DNA from: Serratia marcescens subsp. marcescens ATCC 13880
GTDB lineage: Bacteria > Pseudomonadota > Gammaproteobacteria > Enterobacterales > Enterobacteriaceae
Direction of reading: 5' to 3'
Length of the DNA stretch: 64,000 nt
Assembly: GCF_017299535.1 (NCBI RefSeq)
Contig: NZ_CP071238.1
Coordinates: forward strand, 1,364,001 to 1,428,000
The notes below the pieces were generated by a model. It was not told where the DNA came from, did no database searches, and was given only the letters and a program-made list of their open reading frames with translations. The translations under genes were made by a program, and so were the position numbers. Shown piece after piece: positions 9,020 through 64,000 of this stretch (its first letter is position 1; the number at the start of each line of letters is the position of its first letter).

Positions 9020-9131
9020 CGTTTTCTCCCGATCGGTTTTTAGTTGCCTCTGTGGCGACGGCGGCTAAGATAACGTCAATCACATTGATAGAAAAAGTCA
9101 GGAGCTGTCAGTTTTATTGACAAGTTAAACA

Positions 9132-10025
9132 ATGAATTTCTCCAGCGACAATATCGAACTGTTTTTGGCGGTGCTCGATCGCGGCTCGTTTTCCGCGGCC
9201 GCCCGCGCGCTGCGGCGCGTGCCGTCCGCCGTCAGCATGGCCATCGCCAACATGGAGGCGGAGCTCGGTTTTGCCTTGTTCGACCGTTCTCACCGCGAAC
9301 CGACGCCGACCGCGCTGGCGCTGGCTCTGGCGCCGCACGCCCGCCTGATCGCCGGGCAGCTCAAGCAACTGCAGGTGCACGCCATCGAGCTATCCCAGGG
9401 GCTGGAGAGTCGACTTTCGATCGGCGTGGCGTCGGATATCAACGGCGCCGGCCTGCTGGCGGCGGTGAAAACGCTGTCGCAGCGTTATCCGCTGCTGAAC
9501 ATCGAAGTGCTCAGCGCGCCGCAGGACGACGTGCTGCATATGCTGCATCAGGAGCGCGTCGGCGTTTGTCTGGCGTTTGGCGGGCTGAACATCAACAGCG
9601 CAGAACAGTTCCACTTCGTCGGCGCGGAATCGCTGGTGGCGATGCTGTCGCCGCAGCACCCGGCGCTGGACGGCGCGGCGGGCGAGCTGTTTCTCGAGGA
9701 TCTGGTCAACGTGCGGCAGATCATGGTGGCCAGCCGCGATCTGCCGATCGGCGATCTGCGCCCGCAGGTGGCGGAGGCGTATTGGCGCACCGACAGCCTG
9801 CCGATGGCGCTGAACATGGTGGAGGCGGGCCTGGGCTGGGGCAACTTCCCGCTGTCGCTGGCCGAGCCGCTGCTGGCGCAGGGGAGGCTGGTGCGGCTGA
9901 AATTCAAAAACACCAAGAACGAGCTGCGCTTGCCGATGCATTTGATCTGGCTGAAGAACCGCCCGCTGGACAAGGCGGCGCGCGAGCTGGTCGAGCTGAT
10001 GCGCGCGGCGCCGCAGGAAAGCTGA
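9132..10025 (+). CDS. LysR-family regulator of the adjacent PACE pump
   Basis: A 297-residue LysR protein with an N-terminal helix-turn-helix (LDRGSFSAAARALRRVPSAV region) and a C-terminal effector domain. It is divergently transcribed from the PACE efflux gene with about 112 bases between the starts. This matches the AceR-AceI organisation, so it is probably the pump's activator. The effector is not predictable from sequence. Confidence 0.87.
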   Translation: MNFSSDNIELFLAVLDRGSFSAAARALRRVPSAVSMAIANMEAELGFALFDRSHREPTPTALALALAPHARLIAGQLKQLQVHAIELSQGLESRLSIGVASDINGAGLLAAVKTLSQRYPLLNIEVLSAPQDDVLHMLHQERVGVCLAFGGLNINSAEQFHFVGAESLVAMLSPQHPALDGAAGELFLEDLVNVRQIMVASRDLPIGDLRPQVAEAYWRTDSLPMALNMVEAGLGWGNFPLSLAEPLLAQGRLVRLKFKNTKNELRLPMHLIWLKNRPLDKAARELVELMRAAPQES

Positions 10026-49920: not shown

Positions 49921-50003
49921 ACCGAACAGGGTAATTCTGTTCAATACGGTGTCGGCGGCGGTCGGCATTCTGGCGCCTGTGAATATTTTCTCAGGTGTCC
50001 ATC

Positions 50004-50594
50004 ATGAATATCTACCTTTCCATGGCCGCGTTTGCGCTGGCGGCTTCCATCACCCCTGGCCCGGTCAACATCGTCGCATTGAGCGCCGGGGCGCAATTCG
50101 GTTTTGGCGCGACCCAACGCCATGTGTTCGGCGCCACGCTGGGGTTTACCCTGTTGCTGGTGCTGCTGGGTTTGGGCATGCACCAGCTGCTGATCCTGTG
50201 GCCGGGGCTGACCCGCTTGATCCAGTGGGCCGGCGTGGCTTTTCTGCTGTTTATGGCCTATCGGCTGGCGTTTGACGACGGCAGACTGGGCAACGGCGCG
50301 GCGCAGGCGCCTTCCTGCTGGTACGGCGCGCTGATGCAATGGCTGAATCCCAAGGCATGGCTGGCGTCGGTGGCCAGCCTCGGCGCCTTTGTCGGCGATG
50401 GCGACATGCTGTTGCTATGGCAGTTCGCCGGGCTCTACTTCGTGATTTGCTATGCCTCGGTAGCCTGCTGGGCCTATGTCGGCGCGATGCTGCGCGGCCT
50501 GCTCAGGCAGGCGCGCAACGTACAACGCTTTAATCGCGCGATGGCGGCGTTGCTGGCGGCCAGCGCTTGTTATCTGTTGGCGGAGGGTTTTTGA
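50004..50594 (+). CDS. LysE-family amino acid exporter
   Basis: A 196-residue membrane protein with five to six helices and the LysE/RhtB signatures SITPGPVNIVALSAGAQFG near residue 14 and WLNPKAWLASVAS near residue 113. Family members export amino acids or their derivatives. Its 3' end overlaps the convergent AraC regulator gene by 25 bases, a common LysE-AraC arrangement that suggests mutual regulation. A GTG 9 bases earlier is an alternative start. Confidence 0.86.
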   Translation: MNIYLSMAAFALAASITPGPVNIVALSAGAQFGFGATQRHVFGATLGFTLLLVLLGLGMHQLLILWPGLTRLIQWAGVAFLLFMAYRLAFDDGRLGNGAAQAPSCWYGALMQWLNPKAWLASVASLGAFVGDGDMLLLWQFAGLYFVICYASVACWAYVGAMLRGLLRQARNVQRFNRAMAALLAASACYLLAEGF

Positions 50595-51397
50595 TACTGG
50601 CCGGGCGTGGCGGCCAACAGCTGTTTGAAGGTGCGCTGAAAGTGCGCCTGATCGGCAAAGCCGCTTTCGCTGGCGGCCGCGGCGATCGGCAGGCCGCTTT
50701 TCAATAACCGATGGCCGTGCTGCACGCGGCGGTTGATCAGATAGGCGTGCGGCGTCATGCCGTAACGCTGGCGGAAGGCGCGGATCAGGTAAGAAGGGGA
50801 GAGCGCGGCGGCGCGGCAAATGTCGTCCAGCGTCAGCGGCTGGGTGCAGTGCGCGTCGATAAACGCCGCCGCCGCTTCCAGTCGGCTATGCGGCGGCGTC
50901 TCCGGCTGGCGGACATCGCCCAGCCCGAGCTGCAGGGCGCTGAAATACTCCACCATGGCGATCTGTTTTTCCAGCGCGCTGCACAGCGGATCCGTCAGCA
51001 GCGCATAAAGGCGATTCAGGCCGTGGAACAGCGCCGGATCGCGACTGAGCGGCTGGCTGAACGGAACAAAACGCTCGCCTTCGCCGCCGAGCAGCTCCTG
51101 CTGCAGCGCGCCGATCCAGGCGAGATCGAGATAGAACATGATGTACGACCAATTGCGGTCGGCGATCGGATTACAGGCGTGCGCCTGCTGCGGGTTGATG
51201 ATCACCAGATCGCCGGCGCTGACCTGCATGCGCCGCTCGCCGTTGACATAGGTGCTGACGCCGCCGGTGATGGCACCGATGGAAAAGAATTCGTGGCTGT
51301 GCAGGCTGTAACACGCCTGGCGGCCATCCGCGATGGCGCGGGCTTCGACGAACGGCAACTGCGGATCGCGCCAGAACTGCGGCGTTTTTTCACTCAT
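50570..51397 (-). CDS. AraC-family regulator with cupin sensor domain
   Basis: A 275-residue regulator. The N-terminal AraC-type cupin covers residues about 15-150 (LHSHEFFSIGAITGGVSTYV, GDLVIINPQQAHACNP) and the C-terminal double helix-turn-helix about 175-272 (LTLDDICRAAALSPSYLIRAF and AASESGFADQAHFQRTFKQL). It is convergent with and probably regulates the LysE exporter. Confidence 0.88.
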   Translation of the reverse strand: MSEKTPQFWRDPQLPFVEARAIADGRQACYSLHSHEFFSIGAITGGVSTYVNGERRMQVSAGDLVIINPQQAHACNPIADRNWSYIMFYLDLAWIGALQQELLGGEGERFVPFSQPLSRDPALFHGLNRLYALLTDPLCSALEKQIAMVEYFSALQLGLGDVRQPETPPHSRLEAAAAFIDAHCTQPLTLDDICRAAALSPSYLIRAFRQRYGMTPHAYLINRRVQHGHRLLKSGLPIAAAASESGFADQAHFQRTFKQLLAATPGQYQKPSANR

Positions 51398-51466
51398 ACG
51401 CTTTCCTTTTCACTGAGGCGGCATCACAGTGTTATAGCCTGAAAGCGACGAGAGGGGGAATGGCGG

Positions 51467-51685
51467 ATGATGATTTTTAACGTGTTCGGCCGTCTGCTGG
51501 GCGTGAAGCGCATCGGGGACGAATGGCGGCTGTTCCGCGTGACGCTGCCGGAGCGCAAATATGCCCCCAGCCACGATATCGTGTTGCCGGCCGATCTGCG
51601 CGAAGAGGAGATCGCCGGCTATCTGGGGGATATCTATCACGAGGCGGCGACGCCGCAGCGGCCGGAGGTGTTTCGCGTCGAATAG
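51467..51685 (+). CDS. small conserved protein of unknown function
   Basis: A 72-residue soluble protein starting MMIFNVFGRLLGVKRIG and rich in charged residues, with predicted alternation of strands (EWRLFRVTLPE) and one helix (REEEIAGYLGDIYHEAA). A GAGAGGGGGA site precedes the two adjacent ATGs. Resembles small DUF proteins found beside regulators in enterobacteria, but I cannot name it with confidence. It converges on the RIO kinase gene with 9 bases between the stops. Confidence 0.7.
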   Translation: MMIFNVFGRLLGVKRIGDEWRLFRVTLPERKYAPSHDIVLPADLREEEIAGYLGDIYHEAATPQRPEVFRVE

Positions 51686-51694
51686 CGCGGCGCG

Positions 51695-52543
51695 TTACTC
51701 TTCCGCGTTGCGCGCCATGAGGCGGCGCTGGTGTTCCTCGCTGGCGGCCTGGATCTCTTCCAGCACCGAGCCGACATCGGCGCGCTTCTGGATTTCGCTG
51801 AACCGGCCGCTGAGGGCGCTGTCCGGCGTCAGATTGCCTTCCTGATACAGCGCCCAAATCTCTTTGGCGTATTGGCTGTCGCGCAGTTCCGGCGCGAATT
51901 GGCCATAATATTCCGCCAAATTGTTGATATCGCGCTCGAACATGCTTTTGGCGTGATTGTTGGCGGCGGCGTCCACCACCTGCGGCAGATCGATGATCAC
52001 CGGCCCGTCTTTATCCATCAGCACGTTGAATTCCGACAGGTCGCCGTGCACCAGCCCGGCGCACAGCATGCGCACCGCGTAATTCATCATCAGGGCGTGA
52101 TCGGCGCGCGCCTGTTCCGGCGTCAGGATGACATCGCTCAGGCGCGGCGCCACCAGACCTTCTTCGTCGGTAATCAGCTCCATCAGCAGCACGCCGTCCA
52201 GGCAGATATCCGGCTGCGGCACCCGCACCCCGGCCTTGGCCAGCAGATACAGCGCGTCCACTTCGGTGTTTTGCCAGGCTTCTTCCTGCTGCTGGCGGCC
52301 GAATTTGGAGCCTTTGCTCATGGCGCGCGCGTCGCGGCTGTTGCGCACCTTGCGCCCTTCCTGATAGTGAACCGCCTGCTTGAAGTTGCGCTTCTCGGCC
52401 TCTTTGTACACTTTGGCGCAGCGGATCTCATCGCCGCAGCGCACGATAAACACGTCGGCTTCTTTGCCGCTTTTCAACCGGCGGATGACGTCGTCGATTA
52501 ACCCGTCATCCACCAGCGGCTGGAGTCGTTTTGGAATTTTCAT
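51695..52543 (-). CDS. bacterial RIO-type serine protein kinase
   Basis: A 282-residue atypical protein kinase. The nucleotide loop is in LKSGKEADVF (residues 24-32), the ATP lysine is K44 (CAKVYKE), the catalytic loop is HGDLSEFN (D168, N173) and the metal-binding aspartate is D185 in IIDLPQ. These are RIO1-family features; such kinases are typical of archaea and eukaryotes, where they act in ribosome maturation, but a bacterial branch exists. The target here is unknown. Confidence 0.87.
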   Translation of the reverse strand: MKIPKRLQPLVDDGLIDDVIRRLKSGKEADVFIVRCGDEIRCAKVYKEAEKRNFKQAVHYQEGRKVRNSRDARAMSKGSKFGRQQQEEAWQNTEVDALYLLAKAGVRVPQPDICLDGVLLMELITDEEGLVAPRLSDVILTPEQARADHALMMNYAVRMLCAGLVHGDLSEFNVLMDKDGPVIIDLPQVVDAAANNHAKSMFERDINNLAEYYGQFAPELRDSQYAKEIWALYQEGNLTPDSALSGRFSEIQKRADVGSVLEEIQAASEEHQRRLMARNAEE

Positions 52544-52663
52544 GCAGCCTTGTACCCTATTTAGGCTCCGGTGTGAATGGCTTGCGCAGTTGATAGCGTA
52601 AGTTAGACCCGAAAGGCAAACATTAGTTTTGCCGCCGCGGCATCATTGCGCGGCGGCGGGCGT

Positions 52664-54154
52664 TCACAGGCTGCCTGTCGGCACCCAGACGCTGACGCTG
52701 CCGGCGTTAACCGGGAAATGGGCGCTGCCCTGGTCGTCGGTGGTGATTTCCTCCTGGCGATTACCGAGGAAATCGCGCCAGGCGGTGTGCGCCAAATCGG
52801 CGCCCAGCGCGACCGTCTTGCCGCTCTCGCCGCCGTTGGTCAGCACCACCACGCAGCCGGGGGCCTCGGCGGTGCCGGCGCGGCTGAAGGCCACGCAGTG
52901 GCTGTCGTCGAAGTAGTCGGTTTGCGGGCCGTTGGCGAAGCGCTGGCGGGCGGCGATCAGCTTCTCCAGCTCCGGGATCGCCGGCATGTCGATCTGGTAT
53001 TCGCCGCCGTCGCGCCCCTTGTCGCGGTAGCTGGCGCCATACAGGTCGGGGTAAAACACGCAGGGCACGCCCTGTTCGCGCAGCAGGATCAGCGCATAGG
53101 CCAGCGGTTTGAACCAGGGTTCCACCGGCGCTTCCAGCGATTGCAGCGGCTGGGTATCGTGGTTGGCGACCAGCGTCACCGCGTGGGCCGGATCGGCGGC
53201 GGTCAGGGTATCGGTGAAGATCTGCGCCATGTCGAAGCCGTCGCCCTGTTTCGACGCCTGATGAAACTTCAGGTGCAGCGCCACGTCGAACAGCATCACC
53301 TTGCCGTCCACCAACTCGATATATTGTTGCAGCGCGCCGAGATCGTGCGACCAGTATTCGGCAACGATAAACAGGTCGCGCTGCGCGCTGCCGCGCACGT
53401 GATCCGCCCACTCTTTGAAGAACCAGGCGGGAATGTGTTTGGCGGCGTCAAGGCGAAAGCCGTCGCACGGCAGCGTGTCCAGCAGCCAGCGCGCCCAGTA
53501 TTTGAGTTCCTCCGTCACCGCGGCGTTGCGGAACTCCACGTCGGCGCCCATCAGGTAGTCGTAGTTGCCTTTCTCGTCGTCGACCTGATCGTTCCAGCCG
53601 TCGTCGCCGTAGTCGTTGGCGATTTTAAACACCCCTTTGTCGTCCGGCTGCTCAACATAGTCGACGCCGCTGAAGCATTTGTAATCCCAGATAAACTCGG
53701 AATGCACGCCCTGGCGACCGGGAAAGGTGAAGCGGGTGTAGGCCAGCGCGTCGAAGCCCTGGTCGTCGATATCGTTGCGGTTGTTGGCGTCCACCTTGAA
53801 TACGTGTACCCGTTCTTTTTCGTCCGCGCCGAGCTTGTGGTTGAACACCACGTCGTAGATCACCCCCACGCCGTGTTCGCGCAGCGTAGTGGCGGCATGT
53901 TCCAGCGCCGCCTTGTCGCCGTATTTGGTGGCCACGCTGCCTTTCTGGTCAAATTCGCCCAAATCGAACAGATCGTAGGTGTCGTAGCCGACGGAGTAGC
54001 CGCCGGAAGCGCCCTTGCAGGCGGGGGGCAGCCACAGATCGGTGATGCCCAGTTCGGCCAGGTGCGGGGCGCGCTCGGCGGCCTCCTGCCACAGTTTGCC
54101 GCCGTCGGGGTAGTACCAGTGGAAGAATTGCAGCAGGGTGGTTTTTTTCGTCAT
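52664..54154 (-). CDS. amyA: cytoplasmic alpha-amylase
   Basis: A 496-residue GH13 enzyme with no signal peptide, matching E. coli AmyA (495). GH13 regions visible are DVVFNHK (region I), [11 protein letters not shown] (region II, nucleophile D), FIVAEYW (region III, general acid E) and LVANHDTQ (region IV). It hydrolyses alpha-1,4-glucans inside the cell. Monocistronic. Confidence 0.94.
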
Positions 54155-54630
54155 GAGCCAGCGTCCCGGTTAGCCAGAAGGAGAGGTGCAGTTAAAGCAT
54201 GGGCTACTTTTGGCAAAAGGGACAATGGCGCAGGGAGGCGCGCGAAGGCAGGCGTAAATATGTAACCGATATTGACGGGATAGCGATTAAGTTGCTGCTA
54301 TCAAGTTTTCACGTTTTAGTTTTTATTAACTATTTTTCAAATAGATATTTGCTTTATTTTTTGTTCTGTCAAATTTTGATGTTTTTACTCCCATTTTCAT
54401 TGGTTTTTTATTTTAATTTTAAATATTAATTTGGATTTTAGTTTCTAAAATAATAAATTAAATGGCTTTAAATTCTGGTTAATGAAATGTTTTGACATAT
54501 TCAGATGCCCCGTTGGTTATTCATTCGCAATTGTTTATGCGTTATCGTTATGTTCTAAATTAGGTAACACTATCAACCAATAATCCATCCAACGCAGCGT
54601 GAAGGTGGAAGTACAGGGGAGCATAACGCC
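54155..54630. promoter_or_regulatory. AT-rich intergenic region between amyA and the MarR-GNAT gene
   Basis: About 475 bases, strikingly AT-rich from 54290 to 54550, between divergent genes. A 76-codon frame (54199-54429) exists but its composition is just translated AT-rich DNA after an arginine-rich start, and it has no ribosome site. The region probably holds both promoters and may bind H-NS. Confidence 0.5.
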
Positions 54631-55560
54631 GTGAACATCAGGGATTTCAGAGCATTGGCGCGCAGTTTGGTCAGAGAATTCGGCATGTTGAACAAGCAGA
54701 GCAACGGCTCGCGCTTTTCGCCGCTGCAGATCCATCTGATGATCGAAGTCAGCGAGCAGCCGCTGGGCGTCACCGAGCTGGCGGCCCGGCTTTGCATCGA
54801 CAAGGCCAGCGCCAGCCGGGCGCTGCGCAGCCTGGTGGCCGCCGGCGTGATAGAAACGGTGGATCATCCGGATGACAAGCGGCACAACCTGCATCGGCTG
54901 AGTAAAAAGGGCGGTAAGGCGCTGGCCGGCATCGAGAGCGACGCCGACGGTTTTATGCAGGCGGCGCTGGCGCAGTTGGACGACGATGAGCTGGCGAGTA
55001 CCACTGCGGCGATGAAAAAGATGACCGCGGCGCTGCGCAGCGCGCGCAAACAGCGCGACGCCAACCTGCGGGTGCGGCCGATTGCCGCGCGCGACGATGC
55101 GGCGATGGCGGCGATCATTCGCGACGTGTTTCGCGAGTATGGCATGGACAAGATGGAAGGGGTCAGCCTGCACGATCCGGATCTCGATCGGCTGACCGGC
55201 CTGTATCGGGACAACGGTGGCCGCTACTGGGTGCTGGAGCGGGACGGGCAGGTGGTGGGGGGCGTCGGCATGGCGCCGCTGGCGGGCGAAGAGCCCGGCT
55301 ATTGCGAACTGCAAAAACTGTTCTTCAAACCCGGTGTGCGTGGGTTGGGCATGGCGCGCTATATGGTGGTGCAGGCGCTGAAGGCGGCGCGGGCGGCAGG
55401 GTATCGCTACTGCTATCTGGAAACCACCGAACAGTTGAAAGAGGCGATTGGGCTGTATTACGCGCTGGGTTTCACGCTGCTGACGGAACGGCGCGGCAAT
55501 ACCGGCCACCACGGCTGTAATGTGTGCATGCTGAAAAATCTGCAGAACGACGATATGTGA
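54631..55560 (+). CDS. MarR regulator fused to a GNAT acetyltransferase
   Basis: A 309-residue two-domain protein. Residues 1 to about 140 are a MarR winged helix (LMIEVSEQPLGVTELAARLC, then the DHPDDKRHNLHRLSKKG wing). Residues about 150-309 are a GNAT domain (LQKLFFKPGVRGLGMARYMV acetyl-CoA loop, EAIGLYYALGF). The start is GTG at 54631. Such fusions exist in many bacteria; whether acetylation and DNA binding are coupled is unknown. Ends 85 bases before an SLC13 permease gene on the same strand. Confidence 0.88.
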   Translation: MNIRDFRALARSLVREFGMLNKQSNGSRFSPLQIHLMIEVSEQPLGVTELAARLCIDKASASRALRSLVAAGVIETVDHPDDKRHNLHRLSKKGGKALAGIESDADGFMQAALAQLDDDELASTTAAMKKMTAALRSARKQRDANLRVRPIAARDDAAMAAIIRDVFREYGMDKMEGVSLHDPDLDRLTGLYRDNGGRYWVLERDGQVVGGVGMAPLAGEEPGYCELQKLFFKPGVRGLGMARYMVVQALKAARAAGYRYCYLETTEQLKEAIGLYYALGFTLLTERRGNTGHHGCNVCMLKNLQNDDM

Positions 55561-55645
55561 GCGGTTTCAAGGTTAGCGCCCGCGCCTTGTGTCACCCTGT
55601 TAACCGTTTGATAACAATCACAACGTTTTATCAGGGAGGAAAACT

Positions 55646-56944
55646 ATGTTGGCGGATCCGATGGCGCTGTCTGCGCTGGTCACGCTGGTGGTCATCGCGC
55701 TATGGGTCAGTGCCCGCTTACCGGAGTATTTGGTCGCGCTGCTGTTCTTTGCGGCGGTGATGGTGTTGCAGCTGGCGCCCGCCGCGGTGACCTTTTCCGG
55801 TTTCGCGTCTTCCGCATTCTGGCTGGTGCTCAGCGGCTTCGTGCTGGGCACCGCCATCCGCAGCACCGGCTTGGCGGATCGCCTGGCCAACCGGCTCTTG
55901 CCGCACCTGGCCGGTTCCTGGCCCCGTCTGGTGGGCGGCGTGGTGGCGATAAGCTACGCGCTGGCGTTTGTCATGCCCTCCAACATGGGGCGCATTACGC
56001 TGCTGATGCCGATCGTCATGGCATTGGCCGATCGCGCCGGTCTGGCGGAAGGCACGCGCGGCCGCATCGGTTTGGCGCTGGCGGTGGGGTTCGGCACCTT
56101 CCAGCTCTCCGCCAGCATTTTGCCGGCCAACGTGCCCAACCTGGTGATGAGCGGCGCGGCGGAAAGCGCCTACGGCAGCCACTTCGCTTATCTCTCTTAT
56201 CTGCTGTTGCATGCCCCGGTGCTCGGGTTGGCCAAAGGCGCATTGTTGACGCTATGCATCTGCGGCCTGTTCCGTGCGCGGCCGCAACCGGTGGTGGCCG
56301 AGGCGGGGCAAACGCCGCTCAGCGCCGCCGAGTGGCGGCTGATCGCGCTGTTGGGCATTACGGTGTTGCTGTGGATGTCCGACAGCTGGCACGGCATTGC
56401 CCCCGCCTGGATCGGGTTGGCGGCGGCCTGCGTCTGCCTGCTGCCGCGCATCGGTTTTCTCAACGGTGAGCAGTTCGCCGCCGGGGTTAACGTGCGCACC
56501 TGCATTTACGTGGCGGGGATTCTGGGGCTGACCGCGCTGGTCAGCCACTCCGGCCTTGGCGATCGGCTGGGCGGTGCGCTGCTGGCGATGATGCCGGATC
56601 TGCACGGCAAGCCGTTCACCGCATTCGGTTCGCTGGTGGGGATCACCGCGTTGCTGAATTTCGTGGTGACCGCCAACGGCGTGCCGGCGCTGTTTACCCC
56701 GCTGGCACAGGCGTTGTCCGCAGGCAGCGGCCTGCCGCTGCTGACGGTGTTGATGACCCAGGTGATCGGTTATGCCACGCCGCTGCTGCCGTATCAGGCC
56801 TCGCCGATCGTGGTGGCAATGGGGATGGGCAAAGTACCGGCGCGAGAAGGGCTGAAGCTGTGCCTGCTGTTGGCCGCGCTCAGCTTCGCACTGCTGGTGC
56901 CGTTGGATTATCTGTGGTTCAGGCTGCTGGGGTGGATCCCGTAA
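55646..56944 (+). CDS. SLC13/DASS-family anion permease
   Basis: A 432-residue membrane protein with about 11 helices, of the CitT/SdcS-like divalent-anion group. Conserved re-entrant loop regions are visible as ALAFVMPSNMGRITLLMP (substrate/sodium motif variant SNM-R) and, in the second repeat, NFVVTANGVPALFTPLAQ. It should move dicarboxylates or a similar anion. It converges on the truncated diaminopimelate-epimerase-like stub, with 26 bases of overlap. Confidence 0.82.
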   Translation: MLADPMALSALVTLVVIALWVSARLPEYLVALLFFAAVMVLQLAPAAVTFSGFASSAFWLVLSGFVLGTAIRSTGLADRLANRLLPHLAGSWPRLVGGVVAISYALAFVMPSNMGRITLLMPIVMALADRAGLAEGTRGRIGLALAVGFGTFQLSASILPANVPNLVMSGAAESAYGSHFAYLSYLLLHAPVLGLAKGALLTLCICGLFRARPQPVVAEAGQTPLSAAEWRLIALLGITVLLWMSDSWHGIAPAWIGLAAACVCLLPRIGFLNGEQFAAGVNVRTCIYVAGILGLTALVSHSGLGDRLGGALLAMMPDLHGKPFTAFGSLVGITALLNFVVTANGVPALFTPLAQALSAGSGLPLLTVLMTQVIGYATPLLPYQASPIVVAMGMGKVPAREGLKLCLLLAALSFALLVPLDYLWFRLLGWIP

Positions 56945-57115
56945 ACAGCCCCGCGCCGCCGGCAAAACAATCTTCGTCCAGCGTCAGGGTGGCGATTTTA
57001 TGCACCGGTCCGCGCATGCTGACCTGAAAATCGCCGCTGAAGGCGATCTGCAGTTCGCCGCCCGGCATCCGTACGCTAACCCGATCGCCGACTCGTCCCA
57101 ACTTGCGCCGCACCC
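56919..57115 (-). pseudogene. 3' stub of a diaminopimelate-epimerase-like gene
   Basis: About 60 codons survive of a DapF-fold protein: DRVSVRMPGGELQIAFSG and then VSMRGPVHKIATLT correspond to the C-terminal strands of diaminopimelate epimerase and related epimerases (PGG.L.I and M.GPA motifs). The stop at 56919 lies inside the end of the SLC13 gene. The 5' part is missing and is replaced upstream by IS903-like sequence, so the gene was cut by the insertion/deletion event at the island border. Exact junction not resolvable by eye. Confidence 0.65.
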
Positions 57116-57375
57116 GGCGTCTGTCAGCCCCCATGCTGTCTGACTTTCCATTCGCCCTCGCCAAAGACCTTCAGGCTGTGCATGCTCAGTCCATGCCGCA
57201 ATGGCTGACTCATCAAGCCAGACCGCCAGCGAACCGCGGTGCCTTAGCACTTTTGTTGTTGGTGGGCCAGTTGGTGATTTTCAATTTTTGCTTTGCCATG
57301 GTGACTTGATATTGAAACGAATGTAGCGATCAGAGCCGTCAGTCACCTAAAAGTTCGATTTATTCAACAAAGACC
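57116..57375 (-). mobile_element. decayed IS903-type (IS5 family) insertion sequence
   Basis: The end at 57357-57375 reads, on the minus strand, GGTCTTTGTTGAATAAATC, the IS903 terminal repeat GGCTTTGTTGAATAAATC with one substitution/insertion. The transposase start at 57299 (MAKQKLKITNWPT) is followed by a frameshift. RGSLAVWLDESAIAAWTEHA then continues in another frame, and an internal deletion joins it to LKVFGEGEWKVRQHG, which normally lies mid-protein. The rest of the element is gone: about 260 of roughly 1,050 bases remain. Non-functional relic marking the island edge. Confidence 0.82.
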
Positions 57376-57376
57376 C

Positions 57377-58047
57377 ATTATGCGACAGAACCGGCATAAG
57401 GAGGGATCCGTCAGGGAGGTAGCCGGTACATGGTCTATTTCTTCATAAGAACGATTCGATAGTGTTTGCCGCGCTTTTTTTAAAACATTTAGTTTGGAAA
57501 TGAGAGGTAATAAAAATGTAATCAGGATATTTGATATTAAATATAATTAGCTAATTAGTTATTTTTATTGAATTCATATTGTATTCGTTTTTTATGGTTT
57601 TTTAGGTTTAATGTGGTCGTCGGTATGTTTTTTGGGTTGTTGTTTTTTTGTGATCGCCAAGTAATTTAAGTTATAAAAACGTGATCATGATGTTGACCAA
57701 GGTGTTTTTTTTATGTATCTTTTTTCGCCATGAGACTGAGGTTGAAGTTTGCTCATAAAATTTAGATTTACTGACATTAATTTACTGCTCATTCTATATG
57801 GAAAAATTAAATTTTAGCTTTGGGAAATCTCAGGGGTAAATAATTACAGGGATGGTGTGGTCATGATCTACCCCCCCCCCGATCCTCCATCATACTTTAG
57901 TTTGAAACACTTTTATCATCATGCTTTCGTTGTAATGTAATAATTTCGTTAGTTAATGGCATCAGAATTTTTAATTAAAAGTCTAATCTGTAAATGGGGT
58001 GTCCTGACTGTCACTCTTCTCACTTGTGTGCAATCCTTGGGGATATT
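57377..58047. promoter_or_regulatory. very AT-rich leader of the biosynthetic operon
   Basis: About 670 bases with strongly AT-rich, T-run-rich sequence unlike the GC-rich core genome, with no convincing open frame. It contains a run of ten C at 57871-57880. It probably carries the operon promoter close to 57990-58040 and is a likely H-NS silencing target. Exact promoter hexamers could not be chosen with confidence. Confidence 0.5.
57871..57880. repeat. poly-C tract (10 C)
   Basis: A homopolymer of ten cytosines in otherwise AT-rich DNA, about 170 bases upstream of the carrier-protein gene. Such tracts can change length by slipped-strand mispairing. Sequencing error in the count is also possible. 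Confidence 0.8.
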
Positions 58048-58314
58048 ATGTCTAATAATGTGGAACTGATCGTAACTATCAAAAATATTCTGGCGAAAGA
58101 GCTAAATATCGAATCCCTCGACGAGTTAAATGAATCGACATCCTTGCGTGACGATTTAGGTCTTGACTCAATGGCTACACTGACCTTTCTAATGTCTCTT
58201 GAAGATAATGTCGACAATTTCACTATTGATGCTAATACCCTTGAAGGGCATCACGTAGAAACAATTGGATCCATCTGTGACTATGTGAATGCGCGGTTAG
58301 AGGAAACAGCATGA
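58048..58314 (+). CDS. acyl/peptidyl carrier protein
   Basis: An 88-residue carrier protein with the phosphopantetheine attachment serine S41 in DLGLDSMATL, four-helix ACP layout and acidic composition. It would carry the acyl or aminoacyl chain for the ligase and dehydrogenases encoded downstream. The ATG at 58048 follows TTGGGGATATT; a frame from 57994 adds a cysteine-rich stretch not seen in ACPs. It is the first gene of a compact operon (one base to the next gene) and is AT-rich compared with the core genome. Confidence 0.9.
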   Translation: MSNNVELIVTIKNILAKELNIESLDELNESTSLRDDLGLDSMATLTFLMSLEDNVDNFTIDANTLEGHHVETIGSICDYVNARLEETA

Positions 58315-58315
58315 T

Positions 58316-59212
58316 ATGTACTATATAAATCAGGTTTTTTATAAGGTCATGGACAGGCGTGAATTAAGACGAATGCCCAGAGACCGATTTACCATTTACC
58401 AGAAAGATTTGCACCGAATAGCGCAGGATGTCCTCACCGAATCAACGTTGCTTGAGGGGGACCAGTATTCCTATACGGAGTTGGGCGACGCGGTGTTGCA
58501 GGATGTGGAAAAGGGTCAAGCCCTTGATGGCGTTGATATGGCGATGTTCTGCTACTGGACGCCTGAGTTCGATCCCGACTACTCTGCCTTCGGTCCGTAT
58601 TTTATGGATCGTTATAAAATAAACGGTCATTCTTTTGATATCTGTGATAACGGCAGTCTGGCCTCAGCCACAGCATTAAACGTTGCTGGCAGTTATCTGA
58701 AAAATGGCAGTGTGCAGAAAATACTACTGCTGGGCATGGAGCAAAATACGATACCCAGAAATATAGAGCAAGGCTTTCCCGTTCCATCAAGATCCTGCTC
58801 TGTTGCCGCATTATTAACGGCGGAGAAACGGCCTGAAAGCCAATGGAAGCTCATTAATTCTGGCCACATTACGGAATGGGATTCGGGGAGATTAGAAGAT
58901 AGCTATGGTTTGCTGATCGACATTCTTACTCGGTCAAATACCAATACAGATGATGTCGTATTGTTAACGCAGCGCAGTGGGTATTTCTATAAGAAACTCC
59001 GTTTTCATCTGGAAACCACCTCGCAGGAGTTACCAATAGACTATGCATTTCTTCGCCCTGACGTCACAGGGATGAATGCATTACTGACACTCGCAGGTGA
59101 AACGCTTGCACCACTCAACAAGCGAACCGTATTACTTATCGAGCATGATATGGAAAGTTTGAGGATGGCATGGTCTGTTTTACAGAAAGTTCAGGAGGTG
59201 GATCATGTTTGA
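58316..59212 (+). CDS. KAS III-fold protein lacking the usual catalytic triad
   Basis: A 298-residue protein that aligns by eye with FabH-like ketosynthases. The segment HSFDICDNGSLASATALNVA stands where FabH has FDxxAACxGFxxAL, SYLKNGSVQKILLLGMEQ matches the next strand-helix, and SRSCSVAALLTAEKR matches the GDGAGAAVL loop. The position of the active-site cysteine is glycine (G113). The C-terminal half keeps the fold (TGMNALLTLAGE, VLLIEHDMES), but the HQAN histidine and GNTS asparagine are not recognisable. It overlaps the next gene by 8 bases. Role may be structural, as a chain-length-factor-like partner, or a different acyl transfer. Confidence 0.7.
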   Translation: MYYINQVFYKVMDRRELRRMPRDRFTIYQKDLHRIAQDVLTESTLLEGDQYSYTELGDAVLQDVEKGQALDGVDMAMFCYWTPEFDPDYSAFGPYFMDRYKINGHSFDICDNGSLASATALNVAGSYLKNGSVQKILLLGMEQNTIPRNIEQGFPVPSRSCSVAALLTAEKRPESQWKLINSGHITEWDSGRLEDSYGLLIDILTRSNTNTDDVVLLTQRSGYFYKKLRFHLETTSQELPIDYAFLRPDVTGMNALLTLAGETLAPLNKRTVLLIEHDMESLRMAWSVLQKVQEVDHV

Positions 59213-59870
59213 TATTAATTACCCTTTTGGGTCTAAGCATTATCAGCCGTTTTCCTGGGACGCTGAGGAAATATCACTGAAAGCCTATTCAAACCGACAA
59301 AAAGTCGCTGCGCGCGGCGGATTTGCTGTGGTTTCAGAACATCAATTAGCCCATCAACAGTTAAGTTTTATTACAGAAAGTGGTGCTGACTGGCAGGACA
59401 CGGCCGCGCTGAAGATATACCCGAGCAGCGCTGCCATAACGCGCCATCATCTGGTGGTGTGCCAGCTTCCACCACAGGCTGCTGGCTCTGCCTCGTTTTA
59501 CGAACGGACGCCTCTGTTTGCCTGGCAGCGCGAAATCGTGTGCAGCCAGCTGGAGTGGATTGGACGCTGGACACAAGTCCTGATGGAGCATGCTGCACAG
59601 CGCAAAGTGGGATCATCCACACTGTTGTCTGTCCCTTCCATACGCCTGCGCCTCGGCCAGATCATGCAACACCACGACTTACTGGAGCAATGTCTGGTTC
59701 TGGACAACTGGTCGGCGCAGCAGGCGCTGACTGATATCGAAGGCATGGTGGACGCCTTGATCAAGACTGCGGGCGGTCGGGCAATGCTGCAACACGGACT
59801 GGTAGAAATGAATAGCTTATTCGCCGTGTTAAACCACATTTATCTCGGAACCTCCCATGATGAATTTTGA
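59205..59870 (+). CDS. truncated acyl-CoA-dehydrogenase-like subunit
   Basis: A 221-residue protein whose second half (about residues 105-215) resembles the C-terminal four-helix domain of acyl-CoA dehydrogenases: LEWIGRWTQVLMEHAAQRK, VPSIRLRLGQIMQHHDLLEQ and IKTAGGRAMLQHGL. The N-terminal helical domain and part of the beta domain are missing. It is encoded immediately before a full-length homologue (14-base overlap), so the two may form a hetero-oligomer, as in some mycobacterial FadE pairs. Overlap with the ketosynthase-like gene shows tight coupling. Confidence 0.65.
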   Translation: MFDINYPFGSKHYQPFSWDAEEISLKAYSNRQKVAARGGFAVVSEHQLAHQQLSFITESGADWQDTAALKIYPSSAAITRHHLVVCQLPPQAAGSASFYERTPLFAWQREIVCSQLEWIGRWTQVLMEHAAQRKVGSSTLLSVPSIRLRLGQIMQHHDLLEQCLVLDNWSAQQALTDIEGMVDALIKTAGGRAMLQHGLVEMNSLFAVLNHIYLGTSHDEF

Positions 59871-60948
59871 CCGTTCAGTCGCTCTGACTCACTACGATGA
59901 AAAATGGCTGGATCTGGCGCAGCTGTTTCGTTCTCTCTCTCTGGACGTGCTCAACGATCGCGATGTCGTGCTGGCACATCTGGACAGGCCGTATTTTGAT
60001 GAAGTTTATGCTGATCGTACCAGCACCTGCTTCGAGCGTGCTCGCATGTATGAAAGCCTGTCTTATGGCGATCCGAGCGTATTGCTCTCCTGTCCCGGAC
60101 CTTCGCTTTCAGGCATCGTGCTGCGGGAATTAGGCTCACCGGAACAACAGGACCAGTTCTTTGACCACGTCTCGGGCCAGCGTGCGCGTACTTGCATGGC
60201 TGTAACGGAACCGGAAAAAGGCTCGGATGCCGGTAATCCGACCTCAAGCCTGAACGCTGACCATCTCCTTCAGGCGGAAAAATGGCTGGTGGGCAATGGC
60301 CGTGAGGCCACGATGGGCACCATCGTGGTGAGAACCGGTCCGGGCCCCTACAGCATCGTGGTGGTGATGCTTACCCCTGAAACGCTGTCGCATAACGGCA
60401 CGTTCCGCCAGCTCTTGCCTCTGGCGGGCTTGCAGGGCGCTGGTTTGAGCCACCTGCATTTTGACAATGTGCCCGTCAAACCAGAACAGGTGCTGGGAAT
60501 GCACCGCCGCCCTCTGGAGCGCGGTATGCATGCCGTGATCAAAACCTTCTATCGTATGCGCCCCTGCGTTTGTGCCATGGCGCTGGGTAATGCACAGGCT
60601 CTGCTGGATCATGCGCTGCCGTATTTGCAAACGACCTCGGCGCGGGAACTGCATCGCGCGCTGCAAAGCCAGGCAGACGGCGCTCGTGCACTGAACCTCC
60701 GTGCCGCACAACGTATTGACGATCAGATTTTTGATGGCGCCGCCGTGTCTCTGGCCAAAGCGTGCGCGACGGAACTGGCTGAGAAAGTGGCACGCAGTAT
60801 GCCGTTGCTGACCGGCGTCGCTCATTACCTGACGGATGCCTGGCTGCAGAAAGCCACGACGGATGTCCATGGTTATGAATGGATGGAAGGCAGCCTCGAT
60901 ATGCAGCGTCTGAATATCGTAGCGGGTTACCACTCCCCGGCGAAATAG
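59857..60948 (+). CDS. acyl-CoA dehydrogenase-family flavoenzyme
   Basis: A 363-residue flavoprotein with the acyl-CoA dehydrogenase layout: N-terminal helices to residue about 100, the FAD-binding beta domain beginning CMAVTEPEKGSDAG, and the C-terminal helical domain ending with YEWMEGSLDMQRL. A glutamate there sits near the usual catalytic-base position. In a carrier-protein operon it probably desaturates an acyl or aminoacyl thioester on the ACP, as pyrrole-forming PigA/RedW/PltE enzymes do. GC content here is nearer the core genome than the first two genes. Confidence 0.85.
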   Translation: MMNFDRSVALTHYDEKWLDLAQLFRSLSLDVLNDRDVVLAHLDRPYFDEVYADRTSTCFERARMYESLSYGDPSVLLSCPGPSLSGIVLRELGSPEQQDQFFDHVSGQRARTCMAVTEPEKGSDAGNPTSSLNADHLLQAEKWLVGNGREATMGTIVVRTGPGPYSIVVVMLTPETLSHNGTFRQLLPLAGLQGAGLSHLHFDNVPVKPEQVLGMHRRPLERGMHAVIKTFYRMRPCVCAMALGNAQALLDHALPYLQTTSARELHRALQSQADGARALNLRAAQRIDDQIFDGAAVSLAKACATELAEKVARSMPLLTGVAHYLTDAWLQKATTDVHGYEWMEGSLDMQRLNIVAGYHSPAK

Positions 60949-60969
60949 CCCAACAAACGGATAAACGCG

Positions 60970-62340
60970 ATGGCAATGCATCCTGTGCTCAACCAACGAC
61001 CGGCTCGCCGTTATCAGGGGTTGAAGTTGTTGAACACGCTCTGGGACACCACCTTCACGCTCTGGGTCACGATGCTGGTATCGTCCATGGCGGTATTAAT
61101 CAACATTGGCGTCATCAGCCAGAATGCTCCCCAGACGCTGTACGCGTTAGGGTTATTTCTGCCGCTGAACTACGTAATGATGGCCATCCACGAAGGGTTG
61201 CGAATTCCGGCACTGCGTTACAGTTCACAGAATCACAGCGACGCACGTGAGGTGCTGGGCACGCGTCTGATATTGCTGTTCAGCGCGATGGTTGTGTTGA
61301 TGACATTACTTGTCGGCTGTGTCTGGCTGTTCCAGTCGGGCATTGCCGGGCTGTTCCATATTGCCGCGGAACGTCAGAACGATGTCATGGCGTTTATCCT
61401 GCCGATGTTACTGGCAGGTATTCCGATTGGTTTTGCAACGCTGATTCTCTCGACCTTATTTGGCCGTGGACTCAATCGTTTTGCCAGCCTGCTGGGTATT
61501 AGCGGCACCGCGCTTAACCTGGTGGCGACATGGCTGGCCGCCACGCACTGGCATCAGGGGCTCCAGAGCCTTATCTGGGGGGCATTGATTGGCAGTAGCT
61601 ACCTGACGCTCAGCGGTGGTGCACTGCTGTACAGTCGCGGGGTCCGGCTCTCACTCACTGGCGTCCGCCGTGAAGCCGTACAGGTATTGAATGATATTGC
61701 TTTTATTGGTGCGCCGGTGGCAGGAAGTTTTCTGCTGTTGTTCGGCTTCCTTTTTTCTTTCAACTACCTGGTGTCGTTTTATGGCGCCAGTGAAATCGCC
61801 GGTTTTGGCATCGCATTCCGCATCCAGTCATTCGTCATCCTGCCCGCAATTGCTCTCGGAACGGCCATGGCGATACATGCCAATAACGCGATTGCGGATC
61901 AAAACTTTCCCCGTATCCGCCAGATCCTCTTTGCCGGGGTAGGGCTCGCCGCCGCACTTTATCTGGTCATCAGCGTGCTGGTGTTTCTGTTACAGGAACG
62001 TCTGGTGATGCTGTTCACCCGGGATGAAACCGTCATTGTTCCGGCGTTGCGCTACCTCAACTGTGTTGCGCCGTCCTATCTCAGTCTGGGGGTGGTTCTG
62101 GTACTGATGACCGCGTTGGAACAAACCGGGCAGGGGCTGCGGATATTGCTGATCAATATCGTTTTTTACGCGCTGGAAATTGGCATTGCCTCTTTGCTGG
62201 GGCTCAACCACGTCGATGCAACGCGGCTCTACCTCGTGATTGCGATTATGAACTGGTTATCCGCGCTTTACGTGGTTTACGAACTGAATAAACGACTTGC
62301 CCCCCAGGTCACGTTGCCTCCGCGGGAAATGCAACCTTAA
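60970..62340 (+). CDS. MATE-family exporter
   Basis: A 456-residue multidrug-and-toxin-extrusion family protein with 12 predicted membrane helices in two similar halves (VLINIGVISQNAPQTLYALG and LFSFNYLVSFYGASEIAGFG regions). MATE pumps export organic compounds using Na+ or H+. Its position between the dehydrogenase and ligase genes makes it the likely exporter of the cluster's product and self-protection factor. 21 bases separate it from the dehydrogenase gene. Confidence 0.88.
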   Translation: MAMHPVLNQRPARRYQGLKLLNTLWDTTFTLWVTMLVSSMAVLINIGVISQNAPQTLYALGLFLPLNYVMMAIHEGLRIPALRYSSQNHSDAREVLGTRLILLFSAMVVLMTLLVGCVWLFQSGIAGLFHIAAERQNDVMAFILPMLLAGIPIGFATLILSTLFGRGLNRFASLLGISGTALNLVATWLAATHWHQGLQSLIWGALIGSSYLTLSGGALLYSRGVRLSLTGVRREAVQVLNDIAFIGAPVAGSFLLLFGFLFSFNYLVSFYGASEIAGFGIAFRIQSFVILPAIALGTAMAIHANNAIADQNFPRIRQILFAGVGLAAALYLVISVLVFLLQERLVMLFTRDETVIVPALRYLNCVAPSYLSLGVVLVLMTALEQTGQGLRILLINIVFYALEIGIASLLGLNHVDATRLYLVIAIMNWLSALYVVYELNKRLAPQVTLPPREMQP

Positions 62341-62387
62341 CCGTGATGGAACAGGTTCTTATCTTACTGAATGCTCAGGAGTTATGC

Positions 62388-63962
62388 ATGAAGCACAGCT
62401 TGGCAGAATTGATTCGCGATGCAGATATAAATTACCCGAACAGAACCGCCCTGATCTTCAAAGATCATCACTATAGTTACCATGATATCTGGATGCGGGT
62501 ATGTGCTATCGCTGCCGGGATGCGGCACCGCGGACTGCAGCCGGGTGACAGGGTTGTGATTTGTCTGGGCAATCATCCGGACAGCCTTGCCGCATTCTGG
62601 GCAGCGCAAAAGCTCGGTGCCTGTCCTTCTCTGGTCGCTATCGATACGGCCGTGAATAAACTGGCTTATATTCTTAATAACAGCGGAGCCAGACAGCTGT
62701 TAACCTCTCCGGCCATCTCCGGCGCGCTGATGGCGTTTGGCCTGCAGCAGATCCCTGAGCTCAACACAGTTATTGTCGCGGGAGACCTGAGCAGGACGGA
62801 AAAGGGTATATCGCTGGAAGAGTTCATTGCCGATCCGCTAGCAGAAGCACAAATCCCGTTACAGGCCATTAGCGTTGATCTCGCATCGATCATTTACACC
62901 TCAGGTTCAACCGGCGAACCCAAGGGCGTGATGCTGAGCCATCAGAATATGCTGGCTGCCACGGACTCTTTAGCGACATACCTGGGCTATCGGCAGGACG
63001 ATGTCATAATTGCGGTTCTCCCGGTCGCGTTTGATTATGGTCTCTACCAACTTATCCTGAGTTGCTACATCGGTGCCACTGTGGTGCTGGAGCCCGATGG
63101 TGTTTTACCTACATTGGTGTTGCGCCATATCCAGCAGTATGGCTGCACGGTGATGCCGGGGCTCTCTTCTCTCTACAGTTTGCTGGACACCTATGCCAGC
63201 AGGGGCAAGTTTGACCTGAGCCGCGTGCGTCTGGTTTCCAACACCGGTATGGCATTACGTAAGCAGCATATCCATATGGTAAAGCGCCTGTTCCCGCAGG
63301 CGGACATTTTCTCAATGTACGGTCTGACGGAGTGCAAGCGCTGTACATGGCTCCCGCCAGCCGATCTGGAACGTAAACCTGACAGCGTTGGTATCGCGAT
63401 CCCCAACACGCAGATTCTGGTGGTGAATGATCAGAACCAGCCTTGCTCGCCTGGCGAAGTGGGGCAACTGGTCATACGCGGCGCTACTGTGATGCAGGGT
63501 TACTGGCGCAATCCTGAAGCGACAGCGAAAAAAATTGGCATACATCCGCTGTATGGTGACCGTTGCCTGTACTCGGGTGACTACGGCTGGCTGGATGATG
63601 AAGGCTATTTTTACTTTGCCGGACGCATGGATGAAGTTGCCAAAATCCGTGGCCGCAAGGTTATTTTCAGTGAGGTTGAGAAAGCCTTATTCCGCCATGA
63701 GGCGGTTATCGAAGCAGCGGTCATCGTTCACAATGATGAACAGGATCCTGAGGATCGTATCGTGGCATTCGTCGCCACATCATCGCCTGCCGCACTCACT
63801 GAAGCCGAGCTGCGTCAGTTCTGCCTGACGCAGCTGGAGCAGTATCAGGTTCCTCACGTATTCGTTCTGCTGCCGCGACTGCCGAAAAATGCCAACGGAA
63901 AATTTGATAAGCATAAGTTGCGCTCAGACTTTAAAGATGCCGCACGGAGGCTGCCGGCATGA
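62388..63962 (+). CDS. AMP-forming acyl/aminoacyl ligase (adenylation enzyme)
   Basis: A 524-residue ANL-superfamily ligase. Core motifs are A3 IIYTSGSTGEPKG (about residues 168-180), A5 SMYGLTECKR (309-318), A7 YSGDYGWLDDEG, A8 GRMDEVAKIRGRKV and A10 NANGKFDK with the catalytic lysine. It activates a carboxylic or amino acid with ATP and probably loads it on the carrier protein at 58048, as PigI/PltF do for proline. The specificity cannot be read by eye. The ATG at 62388 has AGGAG 7 bases upstream. It overlaps the next gene by 4 bases (ATGA). Confidence 0.9.
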   Translation: MKHSLAELIRDADINYPNRTALIFKDHHYSYHDIWMRVCAIAAGMRHRGLQPGDRVVICLGNHPDSLAAFWAAQKLGACPSLVAIDTAVNKLAYILNNSGARQLLTSPAISGALMAFGLQQIPELNTVIVAGDLSRTEKGISLEEFIADPLAEAQIPLQAISVDLASIIYTSGSTGEPKGVMLSHQNMLAATDSLATYLGYRQDDVIIAVLPVAFDYGLYQLILSCYIGATVVLEPDGVLPTLVLRHIQQYGCTVMPGLSSLYSLLDTYASRGKFDLSRVRLVSNTGMALRKQHIHMVKRLFPQADIFSMYGLTECKRCTWLPPADLERKPDSVGIAIPNTQILVVNDQNQPCSPGEVGQLVIRGATVMQGYWRNPEATAKKIGIHPLYGDRCLYSGDYGWLDDEGYFYFAGRMDEVAKIRGRKVIFSEVEKALFRHEAVIEAAVIVHNDEQDPEDRIVAFVATSSPAALTEAELRQFCLTQLEQYQVPHVFVLLPRLPKNANGKFDKHKLRSDFKDAARRLPA

Positions 63963-64000
63963 GGAACAAGCAGGCACTGGTATTGTTGTGCGCGGTCCTT
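63959..64000 (+). CDS. start of an exported or membrane protein, cut by the window end
   Basis: The ATG at 63959 overlaps the ligase stop codon. The 14 visible codons (MRNKQALVLLCAVL) are a basic start followed by hydrophobic residues, the beginning of a signal peptide or membrane helix. The gene continues beyond the window and is part of the same operon. Confidence 0.7.
   Translation, partial: MRNKQALVLLCAVL

Follow-up and report, generated by a model that had tools for sequence, protein, structure and literature searches.

The signal of the Vfm quorum-sensing system of plant-rotting Dickeya is chemically unidentified. The vfm locus is called unique to Dickeya and has pecS and indABC upstream and acyl-homoserine lactone genes adjacent (PMC8860905); VfmA is a 3-oxoacyl-ACP synthase (ACP, acyl carrier protein) at the head of the operon A-Z-B-C-D (PMC4686594); VfmG is assigned to export, VfmHI to a two-component system and VfmJ to the phosphopantetheinyl transferases (PPTase) (PMC9765074); and VfmM, VfmO and VfmP are stand-alone adenylation (A) proteins, with VfmC a multidrug transporter (PMC9306890). 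A 64,000-nucleotide stretch of Serratia marcescens subsp. marcescens ATCC 13880 (G000:C1:1364001-1428000, contig NZ_CP071238.1; here the window, with coordinates past its position 64000 given as C1) carries at its right-hand end a seven-gene operon. We consider it fairly likely that this operon opens a nonribosomal assembly cluster of type II, built from stand-alone enzymes, which has diverged from the vfm biosynthetic half to which it is related and works by the mechanism proposed below.

The comparison with vfm covered 333 open reading frames (ORFs) of at least 50 aa from three stretches (L003 and L004, and L005, which overlaps both) that span C1:1418001-1458000, set by BLAST at E 1e-3 against 23 proteins of the vfm locus of genome G374, among which there was no vfmF protein. 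Matches were confined to the genomic island that holds the cluster, and comprised 11 of its 17 proteins other than those of an insertion sequence (IS): ACP, KS1, ACAD, MATE, LigA1, KS2, LigA2, KS3, LigA3, KS4 and the decarboxylase, all listed below. For vfmE, vfmG, vfmH, vfmI and vfmJ no match was found at this threshold among these ORFs, the rest of the genome not being searched. Unlike vfm, the island is without matches to the corresponding AraC, ABC, two-component and PPTase proteins, and its hydrolases were not matched to VfmD. Since the biosynthetic set and the LigA1 substrate pocket are matched and the regulators are absent, the island is, on its gene content, not the Vfm quorum-sensing system but a diverged relative of its biosynthetic half. 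A preliminary description of this DNA had remarked that the enzyme set fitted no pathway known to its author; that puzzle is now partly answered. A limited literature search found no near-identical operon with a known product, and neither Serratia nor Xenorhabdus nor Photorhabdus is named in PMC9306890.

The seven-gene plus-strand operon of the preliminary description was borne out, with all genes present and close-packed (intergenic gaps of 1, -8, -14, 21, 47 and -4 bases). Pfam supports the ACP, ACAD, MATE and ligase calls, and with them the pairing of a ligase with a nearby carrier protein; KS1 and half-ACAD gave no Pfam or NCBIfam match. The gene at the end of the operon, earlier taken for an exported protein, is real and encodes a periplasmic adaptor of the resistance-nodulation-division (RND) type that runs past the window. 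When the sequence beyond 64 kb was examined, the unit was found to continue on the same strand for 13.3 kb. The start of LigA1 was picked to agree with a 524-aa Xenorhabdus orthologue, and some other starts in the cluster are likewise our choice. The features are as follows.

57109..57376, no strand: probable IS relic, island left end
57377..58047, no strand: AT-rich leader of about 670 bases ahead of the ACP gene
58048-58314, plus strand: ACP with the LGLDSM serine motif (PF00550, E 5.6e-9), 69-95% identical in six loci; against vfmZ, E 3e-11
58316-59212, plus strand: KS1, β-ketoacyl-ACP synthase III (KASIII)-fold protein lacking the active-site Cys
59205-59870, plus strand: half-ACAD, 221 aa, probable C-terminal half of an acyl-CoA dehydrogenase (ACAD); possible VfmB counterpart by position and fold
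59857-60948, plus strand: ACAD (PF02770, PF00441), predicted acyl-CoA/acyl-ACP dehydrogenase with the MEG Glu
60970-62340, plus strand: MATE exporter (PF01554, E 5.9e-22), VfmC counterpart, 24-28% identical to three vfm-type MATE proteins
62388-63962, plus strand: AMP ligase LigA1 (PF00501), VfmM type
63959 (C1:1427959)-C1:1428771, plus strand: RND periplasmic adaptor, only 63959-64000 inside the window
C1:1428803-1429968: IS3-like orfA/orfB (presumed family), directly after the adaptor frame
C1:1430074-1430850, plus strand: C-terminal RND fragment, 258 aa of the pump
C1:1430847-1431794, plus strand: KS2, KASIII
C1:1431791-1433389, plus strand: LigA2, amino-acid ligase
C1:1433392-1434312, plus strand: KS3, KASIII
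C1:1434287-1435867, plus strand: LigA3, amino-acid ligase
C1:1435839-1436768, plus strand: ABH1, hydrolase
C1:1436758-1437687, plus strand: TGL, transglutaminase-like protein
C1:1437675-1438616, plus strand: KS4, KASIII
C1:1439001-1440263, plus strand: BtrK-like decarboxylase, pyridoxal phosphate (PLP)-dependent
C1:1440276-1441337, plus strand: ABH2, putative hydrolase (model far under its cut-off, and likeness to ABH1)

A single ACP was found across the whole cluster, and none of the 16 of its 17 proteins that were scanned with Pfam contains a condensation domain.

The reference locus in G374 opens with a MarR gene, a gene of the indigoidine synthase A family and a 1488-aa A-domain/carrier/thioesterase protein, continues with KASIII-ACP-VfmB-MATE-hydrolase, AraC, ABC genes, a sigma54 response regulator, a kinase and a PPTase, and ends in an oppositely oriented operon with the decarboxylase as its first gene, beyond which lies LuxI. 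It was identified as vfm because this gene order agrees with the literature. Pocket columns read from two genomes of the same genus, g97, were DVYVICTVAK (both), DMMFFGACVK and DLMFAGCCMK, the published signatures of VfmO2, VfmP2 and VfmP3 (PMC9306890 Table 1). Genus g97 is thus Dickeya-like by gene order and signatures, although the VfmO2 signature alone cannot mark Dickeya because genera g15 (at a guess, Musicola) and g117 have it too. A KS2 search of 392 family genomes matched 14, in seven genera, at E 1e-25. Besides the window genome these were G265, which has the same cluster, and a further 12 from five genera, of which seven were fetched. In 4/4 g97 genomes tested, a LuxI-family gene is located at a distance of 11-12 kb; of the seven remaining genomes searched, six have none and one has it distant from the cluster. 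Clusters of vfm type were also seen in g117, g57 and g35 (L031, L033, L034, L035, L041, L043, L044) and in g15 (L032, L042). By eye, kinase, response-regulator and ABC genes adjoin those of G382, G090 and G048, and a kinase and a regulator that of G352.

The ligase pockets give the closest link to vfm. LigA1, whose pocket residues the preliminary description had left to be read, has DYYPSTMRCK in all four rows (Serratia, Xenorhabdus, Photorhabdus and Vibrio ruber) and is of the VfmM type, for which the rows were DYYPTTMRCK (four) or DYHPTTMRCK (two); 9/10 positions of LigA1 and VfmM are identical, and a ligase from another class has DYHPSTMRCK. In each of five genomes LigA1 had a single match at E 1e-60 or better, every time the ligase of a vfm-type cluster. 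LigA2, on which the ten code columns were placed by motif, has 4oxi, which we take to be the glycine enzyme AlmE, as its best PDB match. The pockets of LigA2 (DFHALCIVAK) and LigA3 (DFHSVGIVAK) vary among relatives (for instance DVHTLCIVAK and DFHSIGIIAK), and neither matched a VfmO or VfmP signature of PMC9306890 Table 1.

LigA1 also bears on the possibility that the genes are a stray exosortase A-associated module, as the NCBIfam models TIGR03098 (ligase) and TIGR03099 (decarboxylase) are named after that system. Indeed, TIGR03098 is the best model of LigA1 and the decarboxylase exceeds the TIGR03099 cut-off (603 against 478 bits), but LigA1, with 385 bits, stays below its cut-off of 592, the exosortase family PF09721 is unmatched in this genome at E 0.001, and the LigA1 pocket differs from that of 10/10 aligned TIGR03098-type ligases (L049-L058; five over cut-off), which read DY[NS]AT[SA]MRSK (8/10) or DASTATMRSK (2/10), with the weaker rows L061 and L062 diverging more. 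We regard this origin as extremely unlikely. The Met-Arg pair common to TIGR03098-type and VfmM-type pockets is a hint that their substrates are related and acidic.

KS1 was modelled with a pLDDT of 91, and Foldseek placed the model with KASIII proteins (E 2.8e-11). Gly113 stands at the place of the Cys in 24/24 rows (23 of the 32 matches, aligned with the window protein), that place having been set by eye in an ungapped motif alignment against FabH. On the model, KS1 is a KASIII (thiolase-type) fold without the catalytic Cys, in agreement with the altered ketosynthase fold noted earlier, and it is probably a non-catalytic partner. Its profile aligned with the proteins of about 300 aa that adjoin the decarboxylase in vfm-type loci (hhalign, E 2.6e-17) and more weakly with a second vfm-type set of about 285 aa (E 1.1e-7); both degenerate sets carry WTPD and SD-x-G motifs, where KS1 has WTPE and CD-x-G. 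Cys116, His267 and Asp272, placed by eye, are invariant in 14 catalytic-type KASIII rows (KS2, KS3 and KS4 of the island, a KS2 of Photorhabdus, and ten rows of vfm-type loci), which hold His at the place of the FabH Asn. This reading takes the FabH residues to have their usual roles.

The ACAD is 33-36% identical to two vfm-locus ACADs, and its residues E344/G345 are invariant in 14/14 rows; the Glu of this MEG motif is presumably catalytic. Fold search gave moderate support to the half dehydrogenase of the preliminary description, and profile comparison gave none: on its model, the protein of 221 aa is similar to an ACAD's C-terminal half and may, by fold and position, be the counterpart of VfmB. 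VfmB itself, annotated as hypothetical, matches the ACAD C-terminal domain PF00441, over the cut-off in two of three cases (L038:15550-16182, L041:7398-8087, L044:4613-5299). The best PDB match of the decarboxylase is BtrK, with 247 bits against 155 for the best diaminopimelate (DAP) decarboxylase, and by sequence it is closer to BtrK than to the structurally known DAP decarboxylases. In G890, which belongs to another class, the decarboxylase and ACAD domains of a vfm-type cluster are fused in one 828-aa protein (L063:2094-20000, L064:1351-3296), which suggests consecutive steps on one substrate; no vfmH or vfmI match was found in the 30 kb read there.

These enzymes also bear on the analogy from which the preliminary description had started, with PigI/PigG/PigA and PltF/PltL/PltE of prodigiosin and pyoluteorin synthesis as guides to the product. 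There, the ligase would load proline or a fatty acid and the dehydrogenase would make a pyrrole or enoyl unit. A ligase, a carrier and a dehydrogenase are indeed present, but the PigA model scores 20 bits (cut-off 500) and the prolyl-carrier dehydrogenase (RedW) model 35 bits (cut-off 650), the LigA1 pocket is of the VfmM type, and such a trio needs neither a BtrK-like decarboxylase nor two further ligases. The analogy is not supported as a product guide, and a product of this kind is highly unlikely.

For the vfm-related assembly cluster the following chemistry is proposed, from gene content, the shared pocket and the residues kept or lost. LigA1 would adenylate an amino-dicarboxylic acid, at best guess glutamate, and load it on the ACP; the BtrK-like decarboxylase would take the alpha-carboxylate off the ACP-bound unit to leave an omega-amino acyl-ACP; and the ACAD and half-ACAD pair would form a C=C bond, giving 4-aminocrotonyl-ACP if the unit derives from glutamate. 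Two amino acids would be activated by LigA2 and LigA3. The KASIII enzymes that have the Cys, partnered by non-catalytic KS1, would act as acyl or amide transferases that pass the units on or link them. The transglutaminase-like protein possibly forms one amide. A hydrolase would free the product, and export would proceed by MATE and, where it is intact, by the RND pump.

Several observations weigh against this assignment. Six of the 17 proteins (half-ACAD, adaptor, pump, ABH1, TGL and ABH2) have no vfm match at E 1e-3, and where there is one, identity is low: about 40% for LigA1, 35-38% for the decarboxylase, 28-36% for ACAD and about 30% for the KASIII proteins. A transglutaminase-like protein and an RND pump set the island apart from vfm, which has two ACPs to the island's one. 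The half-ACAD profile matched neither the cluster ACADs nor VfmB, and the KS1 profile did not match the catalytic KASIII set, so that in both cases it is the fold model that makes the link; Pfam finds nothing in the VfmB-like protein of G890. The pocket code is uncalibrated for a side-chain-bound substrate, and the amino-dicarboxylate of LigA1 is to be read as a prediction made under that limit. Last, the RND pump is broken in the window genome: the adaptor is conserved to residue 258 and is followed by the IS3-like element (L003:10733-12073) and 258 aa of the pump, while Xenorhabdus mauleonii and P. noenieputensis (G265) have intact copies (adaptor 357 aa, pump 1013 aa). With the pump damaged, the pathway may be in decay.

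From this damage it could be argued that the cluster is a relic without output in this genome, which would be compatible with the vfm-related assignment. The end of the adaptor and the N-terminal part of the pump are gone, and another genome of the genus (G014) holds just the 3' end of the island; besides the pump, however, the frames are open and match their relatives over nearly full length, and MATE is intact. We think such a relic unlikely. The exporter genes foreseen earlier, MATE (PF01554) and in addition RND genes, also suit a product that is a secreted antibiotic or antimetabolite, with the likeness to vfm reflecting shared building-block chemistry. This too would be compatible with the vfm-related cluster, and we give it an even chance. 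As no vfm signalling gene tested is in the island, the product may be such a compound or a signal read elsewhere. The patchy distribution also speaks for a secreted antibiotic or antimetabolite, but the search for vfm regulators was confined to C1:1418001-1458000. A lead to solanimycin through the model of its MATE protein SolL was dropped (35 bits against 780); the solanimycin cluster is of the polyketide synthase/nonribosomal peptide synthetase type.

The borders of the island were determined by BLAST against DNA fetched from three genomes with an empty site (G001, G024, G021). The left junction, with a gene that resembles dapF in motifs read by eye, lies at 57108/57109, and the right flank resumes at C1:1441705; 523 bases separate the flanks in the three genomes, against 20,596 in the window genome. 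Judged from this alignment, a 20.6-kb island replaces 523 bp of the dapF-like gene. By coordinates, G010, G011, G012, G022 and G029 have equal flank spacing, and others differ at the site. In G014 (L066:11984-13501) the left flank is joined, at the same site, directly to the interior of the decarboxylase gene, with ABH2 retained; as only the island 3' end (part of the decarboxylase, and ABH2) is kept, this is read as a remnant. The IS relic called there earlier is probable: it would lie between the left junction and 57376, and the 20-mer at 57357-57376 resembles an IS5-family end. The AT-rich DNA described ahead of the operon is evident, with a GC content of 0.389 at 57109-58047 against 0.614 for window positions 1-57100; the cluster halves have 0.526 and 0.558, and the right side 0.606. 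No tRNA was detected in 50000-64000.

KS1 is present in 1/30 genomes of the genus (one genome per species), which excludes a core gene and, with the empty sites in relatives, supports the horizontal acquisition of the cluster that had been suspected; relatives occur in named S. liquefaciens and S. plymuthica strains. At E 1e-10 the profile A1 found only this genome in a 394-genome sample of the order, which may not include Photorhabdus or vfm-type genomes. Nothing matched KS1 among plasmids and phages, nor ACAD among plasmids at E 1e-40.

A protein search with KS1 gave 32 proteins including itself, among them those of Providencia, S. liquefaciens, X. mauleonii, Photorhabdus, V. ruber and Burkholderia ubonensis, and one with half-ACAD gave 10, with Pectobacterium polaris and S. 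plymuthica A30 also among them. A genome scan yielded six named loci, four of them from Photorhabdus, in which gene order is conserved, the downstream order having been followed in five (all but L008). Protein identity is 53-95% except for half-ACAD (79% in Xenorhabdus, 39-42% in Photorhabdus and V. ruber). That the order is kept across six loci makes the operon more than a chance arrangement. Serratia and V. ruber have complete KS3 and LigA3 genes, X. mauleonii retains a KS3 fragment, and in three Photorhabdus stretches no more than about 350-370 bases separate LigA2 from ABH1. In P. akhurstii (L008:6316-8229) the MATE match is in two pieces some 590 bases apart and in P. luminescens (L011:1868-2937) the ACAD match is split in two, each a possible break. 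Downstream of the V. ruber cluster (L017 reverse strand, 9023-9676 from the far end), a protein is encoded that shares 36% identity with the DUF2807 protein in the Dickeya-type vfm locus.

Parts of the cluster recall other described systems. Exosortase A-associated ligases and decarboxylases belong to the same superfamilies, and Met-Arg is common to the ligase pockets, the rest of the pocket being different. PqsBC (6et3, 5dwz), a KASIII-fold heterodimer with one subunit lacking an active site, was matched in the KS1 fold search and offers a model for KS1 and a catalytic KS; it was no closer to KS1 than other KASIII structures, and a KS1 heterodimer is suggested by analogy. Fold matches of half-ACAD included ChsE4-ChsE5, Tcur3481-Tcur3483 and Fic32-33, which from their structure titles we take to be two chains forming one enzyme. 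The island likewise has two ACAD-like chains but differs in that one is just half length, and the complex of ACAD and half-ACAD is putative. Like the island, the butirosin trio BtrI/BtrJ/BtrK combines a ligase, an ACP and a decarboxylase (BtrK structures 2j66, 7ru7), and BtrK acts on an ACP-bound amino acid; the island adds ACADs and KASIII proteins, and its decarboxylase activity is predicted.

With vfm, the island shares three stand-alone A proteins, an ACP, KASIII and degenerate KASIII proteins, an ACAD, a PLP decarboxylase and MATE, and probably, by fold and position, a half-ACAD. As the enzymes are of the same kinds, the island would be a second route to Vfm chemistry, and the almost unchanged ligase pocket makes the cluster of Serratia, Xenorhabdus, Photorhabdus and V. 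ruber a potential second source of an invariant unit. The missing condensation domains raise the question of how the peptide bonds form. We suggest, tentatively, that vfm and the island type belong to one widespread family that lacks such domains. Its KASIII-fold proteins would work in pairs, one catalytic and one dead, as acyltransferases that make amides, coupling amino acids to a decarboxylated, alpha,beta-unsaturated amino-dicarboxylate bound to a stand-alone ACP. If so, the Vfm signal and the products of Serratia, Photorhabdus, Xenorhabdus and Vibrio would have a reactive unit in common, for example 4-aminocrotonyl, and would vary in the amino acids attached to it.

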